Below, one piece after another: positions 6,565 to 59,506 of a DNA stretch of 64,000 bases. A program made the position numbers and the translations under genes. Position 1 is the stretch's first letter; every line of letters begins with the position of its first letter. Origin of the DNA: Salinirubrum litoreum (GTDB lineage: Archaea; Halobacteriota; Halobacteria; Halobacteriales; Haloferacaceae); assembly GCF_020567425.1 (NCBI RefSeq), contig NZ_JAJCVJ010000002.1, forward strand, positions 847,068-911,067, read 5' to 3'. The notes beneath the pieces were generated by a model that worked only from the letters and a program-made list of their open reading frames with translations, was not told the DNA's origin and searched no databases.

Positions 6565-6844
6565 CGACGAGAGGTGAAAGCCCCCGCGCTCTCGACCTGC
6601 CGCGACTTGGTGCGCGCCTCAGTCGGTCGAGCCAGCAAGCTGGCTCTCCCGCCCTGCGGTGCTACCGGCGTCGGGGCAGGGTCGAGAGCGCGGCCCCTTT
6701 CAGTCCCACCCGGTGAAATCTGCGACCCATCGTGCAACACCCGGTGGACCAGTCGCTTTCAGCGCGAGTGCCTACCTGGAACCGTCGGCGTGCCTGAAGC
6801 GGCTACACGCCGCCGAAGTGAGCGAGATGAACTCGCGCCAGCCC
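6565..6844 (+). repeat. Structured repeat element, copy 1
   Basis: A non-coding block of about 280 bases, repeated at 31700-31986 (reverse orientation) and in shortened form at 44235-44297. It begins acgacgagaggtgaaagccccc and contains a long imperfect stem: GAAAG (6576-6580) pairs with CTTTC (6697-6701), and the 14-base arm 6584-6597 pairs perfectly with 6680-6693. Inside lies a perfect 8-bp hairpin (6629-6646, GAGCCAGC-AA-GCTGGCTC). The 3' part holds two CACCCGGTG palindromes and ends in gatgaactcgcgccagccc. No intact reading frame is conserved between copies. It occupies the gap after the G10 methyltransferase gene. Confidence 0.75.
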
Positions 6845-6944
6845 ACCCGACTGGTGAGTCTGCTGTCGGCTCTCGTGGTCGGTCCCTGTCGCAGTCGGGT
6901 TCGCTCGCCGGGACGTTTTTCACCGACCCACCGAACCGGAAGGT

Positions 6945-31699: not shown

Positions 31700-31986
31700 G
31701 GGCTGGCGCGAGTTCATCTCGCGCACTTCGGCGGCGTGAGGCCGCCTCAGGCACGCCGACGGTCACAGGTAGGTCATCGCTGAAAGCGACTGGTCCACCG
31801 GGTGCTACACGATGGGTCGCAGAGTTCACCGGGTGGGACTGAAAGGGGCCGACCTCTCGACTGGTCCCCGACGCCGGTAGCACTGGACTGAACGAGAGCG
31901 CGAGCGAAGCGACGCGCTCTCGTGAAAGAAGCGCGCACCAAGTCGCGGACCATCGAGAGGTCGGGGGCTTTCACCTCTCGTCGTCG
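31700..31986 (-). repeat. Structured repeat element, copy 2
   Basis: Reverse-orientation copy of the element at 6565-6844. Flanking blocks are nearly identical (cagtcccacccggtga, tgcgacccatcgtg, the two CACCCGGTG palindromes, gatgaactcgcgccagccc). The long stem is kept: 31841-31845 with 31968-31972 and a perfect 12-bp arm 31849-31860 with 31953-31964, although two adjacent base pairs differ from copy 1 on both sides. The inner hairpin is unrelated in sequence but is again a perfect stem (31892-31902 with 31913-31923). It follows the stop of the SWIM-protein gene in that gene's direction. Confidence 0.75.
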
Positions 31987-44234: not shown

Positions 44235-44297
44235 CGACGACGAGCGGTGAAAGCCCCCAGCCCCGTCCAGTCCCACCCGACTCTGCGACTCATCGTG
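44235..44297 (+). repeat. Structured repeat element, stem-deleted copy 3
   Basis: Matches the head (cgacgacgagcggtgaaagcccccag) and part of the tail (cagtcccaccc, then ctctgcgactcatcgtg) of the element at 6565 and 31700. The roughly 110 bases between them, including the long stem and inner hairpin, are missing. Upstream lies the same kind of gaacgcggtcgagtcggttg sequence seen before the other copies. It follows the stop of the gene at 44111 in the same direction. Confidence 0.65.
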
Positions 44298-44522: not shown

Positions 44523-44675
44523 CGCGTGCGAGGAACGCACGCGAGGTCTCCCCGAGAGAACCGAACAGGGCGAGACCGAGGGTCTCGCTGGCAGTCGGCG
44601 CGGCGCGCCGACGACAGAGCGAGAGCGAAGCTCTCGCCAGCAACCGGCGCGGAGCGCCGGTGACGAAGGCTCGTC
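44523..44675. repeat. Array of short perfect hairpins
   Basis: Five perfect 8-bp hairpins stand in a row: 44523-44543 (loop AGGAA), 44570-44588 (loop GAG), 44594-44612 (loop GGC), 44619-44637 (loop GAA) and 44643-44661 (loop GGA), then a 5-bp hairpin at 44662-44675. The last four 8-bp units are each exactly 19 bases long and start 24, 25 and 24 bases apart. Their stem sequences all differ, so the structure and not the sequence is repeated. No gene lies here. Confidence 0.75.
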
Positions 44676-44730
44676 GGAGCGTGCCGCTGACGGTGGCGCC
44701 GCCCGACCACCCCGCGATGTAAAAGCTTAC

Positions 44731-59332: not shown

Positions 59333-59398
59333 CCACGCCGTGGGTCCCCGAGCGACGACATCCCGATCGAACGTCCCGCCGCCTCGCCCGGCCCGACC

Positions 59399-59506
59399 GA
59401 CGATCCAACCGGACCGCGCGACCGCTCTGTCGATCCGACCGACGATCCAACCGGACCGCGCGACCGCTCTGTCGATCCGACCGACGATCCAACCGGACCG
59501 CGCGAC
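59399..59506 (+). repeat. 42-base tandem repeat
   Basis: A 42-base unit starting gacgatccaaccggaccgcg is repeated 2.6 times (59399, 59441, 59483) with no mismatch in the shared part. The length is a multiple of three, so frames stay open through it on both strands, but no start, domain or codon bias supports coding. The remainder of the gap to 59707 holds only the likely halocyanin promoter (for example agttaag near 59603). Confidence 0.85.

Follow-up and report, generated by a model that had tools for sequence, protein, structure and literature searches.

Among the described mobile or mobility-associated structures, the double-hairpin elements of fungal mitochondria are small hairpin units which insert between genes and nest within one another, and to our knowledge they lack a long conserved scaffold. 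Ties between transposition and structured RNA or single-stranded DNA also exist for the TnpB omega-RNAs and the ends of the IS200/IS605 elements. The bacterial REP sequences are short palindromes of 20-40 bp with a GTAG or CGTC tag, and additionally occur as head-to-head dimers with conserved spacers that are mostly 20-100 bp long (PMC3733652). The STAXI motif is a candidate structured RNA found near genes for single-strand-binding proteins, for which the alternatives of an RNA and a DNA structure have been discussed (PMC2864571).

The 64,000-nucleotide stretch of the Salinirubrum litoreum genome analyzed here (hereafter the window) contains copies of an element that can be compared with each of the above systems. 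It shares with REPs and REPINs the dispersed intergenic hairpins, their occurrence either singly or head-to-head with short spacers, the retention of mismatches (as in some REP stems) and the variable occupancy of sites. It differs from them in having a core that exceeds 100 nt, has covarying arms and contains several conserved internal loops, in its distribution across an archaeal order, and in the absence of a link to a Y1 transposase and of a GTAG or CGTC tag at the foot of the hairpin. As with STAXI, its plasmid form adjoins RPA-like genes, whereas STAXI is a repeated pseudoknot and the element is a single long hairpin that is mostly chromosomal. It differs from the TnpB omega-RNAs in lacking both TnpB adjacency and guide-like variability, and from the fungal mitochondrial elements in belonging to a different domain of life. 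Searches with the 4227 models of Rfam 15 recovered no match at the gathering threshold within the window, and none up to an E-value of 5 around copy 2. Searches of an open-access collection of papers, to which subscription articles (among them the Haloferax sRNA survey of 2011) do not belong, recovered neither a description of the element nor its exact motif strings; similarly, it is not described in the available portions of PMC12873603, PMC3235422, PMC3956466, PMC3432209, PMC5867862, PMC4983044, PMC3733652 and PMC2864571. Our preferred interpretation, to which we would assign a probability of roughly 0.47, is that it constitutes a REPIN-like family of non-autonomous, non-coding and intergenic mobile elements that is read via a single-strand fold.

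The window harbors two copies in opposite orientations and a third, short one (Table 1). Homology upstream of the core stops at about 190 bp 5' of it in both of the former copies and extends up to about 700 bp in some other copies of the genome; neither the 5' nor the 3' end of the element is sharply defined. A second form of the 5' domain in this genome, termed type B (L019 and L006), has TATA-like stretches upstream that would be compatible with sense-strand transcription. In three loci (L013, L020 and L021) several degenerate units beginning with GGGGGCTTTCACC lie in near-tandem 3' of the core, and the 5' strand might pair with the CTTTC of these units instead. The motif CCTCCCCAGCC (complement GGCTGGGGAGG) recurs upstream of cores in S. 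litoreum and upstream of L057, L074 and L080, with opposite orientations in different genera, and may represent a separate repeat. The window also contains a perfect 42-bp tandem repeat of 2.7 copies at 59393-59506.

Table 1. Features of the element in the window (coordinates are window positions)
Feature	Coordinates	Strand	Basis
Copy 2 conserved core, GGGTGGGACTGAAAGGGG ... GGGGGCTTTCACC, single long hairpin	31831-31975	+	Model match of 103.8 bits (own-genome R1 search, G000:C2:878898-879041, i.e. window 31831-31974) and exact strings
Copy 2, P1 5' strand GAAAG and GGG half of the 3x3 internal loop	31841-31848	+	Alignment columns 11-18
Copy 2, P2 5' arm, copy-specific sequence (partner 31953-31964)	31849-31860	+	Exact inverted repeat; covariation
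Copy 2, conserved 5' linker with C.C mismatch position, P3 and P4	31866-31883	+	C.C in 39 of 43 cores, Watson-Crick in none
Copy 2, inner 11-bp perfect hairpin with 10-nt loop, variable tip	31892-31923	+	Allele at 22 genome places
Copy 2, conserved 3' linker	31931-31948	+	Located string
Copy 2, P2 3' arm	31953-31964	+	Exact inverted repeat
Copy 2, other GGG strand of the internal loop, with CTTTC as the 3' strand of P1	31965-31972	+	String 31963-31975 located; 43-core alignment
Copy 2, 5' domain, further hairpins common to other own copies	31700-31830	+	Own-genome matches
Copy 1 conserved core	6573-6711	-	Model match of 100.9 bits (own-genome R1 search, G000:C2:853641-853778 minus, i.e. window 6574-6711) and located strings
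Copy 1, inner 8-bp hairpin with 2-nt loop, variable tip	6629-6646	-	Located string
Copy 1, P2 5' arm (partner 6584-6595)	6682-6693	-	Located string
Copy 1, 5' domain	6712-6851	-	Own-genome match 853631-853911, covering query 1-285
Third, short copy, hairpin base only, without P2, linkers and inner hairpin	44246-44278	-	Exact string

A regular-expression search of the fetched loci yielded 67 candidate cores, of which 62 could be segmented and 5 could not; the 43 distinct ones of standard length (22 from S. litoreum and 21 from other genera) were retained to derive the layout of the fold, and cores with large arm inserts were excluded from the pair counts. Cores are 100-300 nt long and have the conserved 5' end GGG(T/C)GGGACTG. 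After the initial GGG(T/C)GGGACT comes P1, in which GAAAG (or GGAAG) pairs with CTTTC (or CTTCC), followed by a GGGxGGG internal loop, the P2 helix of free sequence, P3 with a C.C mismatch, a GA/A loop, P4 in which CGY pairs with RCG, an AA/GCA loop, P5 and the tip. The GGGxGGG loop is present in 43, 43 and 42 of the 43 cores, and alignment columns 11-18 are paired or GGG throughout, with the exception of 2 CT cells in column 14. The pair adjacent to the C.C mismatch flips between C-G (31 cores) and G-C (9). The core is a long hairpin kept by compensatory change: in alignment A1, a trimmed set of 27 of the 43 cores, 93.9% of the 891 cells are paired and 22 of the 33 pairs are altered on both sides, with 117 such cells. 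Not one of 500 shuffles reached any of the five measures used, and shifting the partners by 1-3 columns left 34-44% of the cells paired, a comparison in which the unshifted structure is favored by having been drawn from the same sequences, though hardly to the extent seen. Across the order more than 30 positions of the core are near-invariant; as most copies were found through the 5' motif, part of its constancy is a product of the search, unlike that of the 3' GGG, the C.C mismatch and the arms.

Folding energy alone cannot pick a strand because a palindrome folds well on both, and the 287-nt stretch of copy 2, treated as RNA, indeed folds below its shuffles on the plus (z -5.06) as well as the minus strand (z -6.46). 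In the helix cells of 66 matches from the named genomes there are 1807 Watson-Crick, 78 G-U and 18 A-C combinations, and a count over the 54 better matches (at least 54 bits) gives 54 G-U against 13 A-C (binomial p 4e-7, ignoring relatedness), with 33 GU-rich and 5 AC-rich sequences; the alignment underlying both counts, being a fit to the model, may favor G-U. In the 43 training cores the corresponding numbers are 22 and 14, with 7 of the 14 falling at one pair. Since a double-stranded palindrome should be unbiased, the excess of G-U over A-C indicates that one strand folds alone, either as RNA or as single-stranded DNA, between which the bias does not distinguish because single-stranded DNA also tolerates G-T.

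The original prediction for this locus was that the inner hairpin is an unrelated but equally perfect replacement between conserved flanks, forming a swapped, structure-preserving cassette that might be a variable or targeting part. The two copies do possess different perfect hairpins of 8 and 11 bp, and the flanks CTTGGTGCGCGC (6606-6617 in copy 1 and 31931-31942 in copy 2) and GTGCTACCGGCGTCGGGG (6659-6676 and 31866-31883, respectively) each occur exactly once per copy. The replacement is in fact more extensive than had been noted, given that both P2 arms of the long stem change jointly as well. The description as unrelated has to be qualified, as the inner hairpins represent a few alleles, that of copy 2 matching 22 places in the genome, mostly inside other copies of the element. 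Among 2000 random 48-nt segments of the window, 40 contain a perfect hairpin of at least 8 bp and 4 one of at least 11 bp; by these frequencies an 8-bp hairpin is by itself weak evidence, and an 11-bp one good evidence. Alignment of many copies sustained the idea in S. litoreum, where the inner segment beats its shuffles in 21 of the 22 distinct cores (no more than 10 of 200 shuffles as good), but not in other genera, where it does so in only 3 of 17 cores with inner segments of at least 20 nt. By visual examination of the 22 own cores, 12 have the copy 2 allele or one closely related to it, with a long GCGCG hairpin following CTGGACTGA, 5 of them with extra modules in front; another 4 have a shorter hairpin following CTGGACTGA, in 5 the flanking purine motif is swapped (for CAGGGA or similar before and for GACTGAG or similar after), and the 5' motif is missing from the remaining one. 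Extra hairpin modules nested in some own copies are free-standing elsewhere, for example at window 44560-44700; the latter region is a cluster of alternating hairpin modules with a 49-bp unit that has 48 matches in the genome, some within copies of the element and some alone. Variability was borne out, but it is confined to a few alleles shared among copies; the segment is short and unremarkable in other genera, and we found no sign of targeting. We infer that the inner hairpin is an expandable free tip of the scaffold rather than a guide.

A DNA search of the S. litoreum genome recovers 63 matching pieces, and the R1 model 36 matches at E-values of 0.001 or less, 29 of them above 80 bits, each list missing some loci of the other. 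In the order sample 229 of 293 genomes, representing 70 of the 87 genera and including the own genome, had matches, as did 29 of 196 genomes of the phylum sample, all 29 of them within the order; of the phylum-sample misses listed (all but 147), most lie outside it. Copy numbers per genome are lower bounds, with 13 and 19 candidates scored in the order and phylum samples, respectively. A pattern scan of the named genomes with the 5' motif found at least 120 stretches, and the 80 of these listed are all haloarchaeal by title, including Haloarcula, Haladaptatus, Halorussus, Salinarchaeum, Halobaculum and Halonotius; the CM search in the named genomes covered 58 of these 80 loci. Phages and viral contigs contained no match.

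The copies are intergenic, with few overlaps with reading frames from a simple gene finder, and show no steady orientation relative to genes. Their intergenic regions are tandem in 22, divergent in 14 and convergent in 5 cases, little different from the background of 64, 32 and 29. No flanking gene family recurs: in the comparison of 80 of the 92 listed flanking genes, PALP accounts for 3 of 80 proteins and the others for at most 2 each, among the first 25 of 115 families. A cis-regulatory leader or terminator was rejected on account of this mixed gene orientation and the lack of a recurrent flanking family. Of the 66 matches in the named genomes, 20 form 10 divergent head-to-head pairs, 6 of which have spacers of 24-27 nt, and several of the spacers have a CCAGCC-like center. 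The paired cores differ in P2, each being self-complementary, and several pairs additionally have outer flanks that form inverted repeats. Members of pairs have 19 G-U to 8 A-C cells, and the other matches 59 to 10.

Comparisons of orthologous sites point to gain, loss and replacement, although they are read without polarization by a tree. At one site in a single genus a core is present in only two of 20 fetched loci, L247 and L248, with the other 18 (one of which lacks the left flank) having no match better than an E-value of 0.7. The right flanks of these two loci are 97% and the left flanks 94% identical, and their P2 sequences are wholly different while being perfectly paired in both. At a second site, in another genus, 4 of 13 loci have matches at E-values of 0.0003 or less, namely a clear pair in G061, another pair in G171 and single cores in G090 and G142; G105 has a weak pair, 7 loci have no core and one lacks the left flank. 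G090 has in its single core the same P2 as G061 has in its right-hand core, but oriented like a left-hand one, which is the arrangement that an inversion would leave (L282/L283); one core has apparently been inverted at the same locus between two related species. No target-site duplication was seen at the junctions of the one site examined for it. The Y1 transposase domain PF01797, in which RAYT is pooled with the IS200/IS605 TnpA, is found in 8 of 12 genomes rich in the element and in 9 of 12 without it (with none in G067, G016, G059 and G169), and these similar frequencies do not support a link.

A search of PLSDB with one plasmid-type core gave matches in 125 records, and in 9 of 12 plasmid regions viewed (L267-L273, L275 and L276) a divergent gene for an RPA-like OB-fold protein adjoins the core at a distance of about 440-555 bp. 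This name rests on the annotation of the records and on similarity among the nine proteins, the first of which shares 59-88% identity with the rest; Pfam gave a single sub-threshold OB-fold match among the five scanned. The region between core and gene is conserved and non-coding, with other long hairpins and a further long palindrome. In tblastn searches among the fetched loci, RPA was found outside plasmid records only in L058, L078, L097 and L238, and there is no RPA-like gene within the 10 kb read around the plasmid copy of S. litoreum (contig C5). Several of the plasmid-type cores are degenerate.

A close rival to the mobile-element interpretation, with a considerable chance of being correct, is that the copies constitute a structured ncRNA family that performs some function in the cell, such as serving as the ligand of an archaeal RNA-binding protein, and has spread by duplication and recombination, the inner hairpin being an expansion segment. 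The marked preponderance of G-U over A-C, the purine-rich internal loops flanked by covarying pairs, the order-wide conservation and the TATA-like stretches upstream of the two own type-B copies are all consistent with it. They are countered by the upstream regions of 63 copies, which over 300 nt show no AT-rich peak and contain only 2 TATA-like hexamers, the unsteady orientation to genes, the head-to-head spacing of 24-27 nt, which leaves scant room for two promoters, and the lack of the core at orthologous sites with no visible replacement. An alternative that we consider unlikely retains mobility, makes the element a previously undescribed class found throughout the order, and places recognition of the structured nucleic acid at a quadruplex-duplex junction, where a three-tetrad G-quadruplex is clamped between two helices and the rest of the hairpin varies freely. 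Its tetrads would be built from the GGG-N-GGG and both GGG strands of the kept 3x3 internal loop, and the structure would be favored by the molar intracellular potassium of haloarchaea and serve as the binding site of an RPA-like or RNA-binding protein. The four G-runs are conserved; ViennaRNA did not favor a G-quadruplex in any of 24 cores, though its model is believed to be unable to score such a long loop.

The divergent RPA-like neighbor in most plasmid regions and the many plasmid records with a matching core raise the quite improbable scenario of a plasmid maintenance or replication element from which the chromosomal copies are derived; against this are the rarity of RPA outside plasmid records among the fetched loci, the C5 copy with no such gene in the 10 kb read and the decay of several plasmid-type cores. 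It is still less probable that the element is a passive palindrome hotspot, whose inverted repeats are homogenized by gene conversion and replication slippage without any recognized structure. Haloarchaeal intergenic DNA is here rich in nested hairpin modules and the arms do change together, but conversion yields perfect arms, yet GGGxGGG and C.C persist across genera beside flipping pairs; these kept mismatches, together with the strand asymmetry of the better matches, already disfavor such a process. The original prediction also ventured an analogy to transposon-derived structured RNAs. Its observation that the window encodes no TnpB is correct, and the dispersal of the element, which comes, goes and apparently inverts at sites, agrees with the general idea, while a tie to TnpB itself was not found. 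A guide RNA or relic of an IS200/IS605 element with a programmable inner hairpin or flank is scarcely credible: the copies are dispersed and structured with a swapped segment and the genome does have TnpB genes, but of 15 TnpB places and 36 cores only one pair falls within 10 kb (2.4 kb apart, on contig C5), the inner alleles are common to many copies, and the 3' tail is partly conserved with no variable guide.

The REPIN-like interpretation is preferred on the basis of the dispersed intergenic copies, the distribution throughout the order and, within the phylum sample, only there, the covariation, the kept unpaired features, the strand bias, the head-to-head pairs and the variable site occupancy, as well as the replacement of P2 at the same site, the recurrence of the copy 2 allele and the lack of a recurrent neighboring gene. 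It is weakened by the failure to find a transposase or a target-site duplication, by the lack of a Y1 link and of a GTAG/CGTC tag, by the blurred ends, by an intergenic class near background, and by the near-invariance of so many positions across the order, which exceeds the conservation usual in selfish DNA. Under the REPIN-like interpretation, a putative trans-acting protein would recognize the scaffold formed by P1 and its adjoining GGGxGGG loop, the C.C mismatch and the two further loops GA/A and AA/GCA, probably in a single-stranded form, be it replication-exposed DNA or RNA. P2 and the inner hairpin would need pairing only, and hence could drift, lengthen by the addition of hairpin modules and be exchanged among copies through recombination.

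If this interpretation is right, most haloarchaeal genomes contain a multi-copy structured element that is missing from Rfam 15, and which would represent an archaeal counterpart of the bacterial REPINs with a far richer fold. It would provide a natural series of compensatory changes for work on RNA and DNA structure, and could serve to track gains, losses and inversions between genes. Since the RPA-like gene adjoins the plasmid form, a role in single-strand binding becomes testable there.
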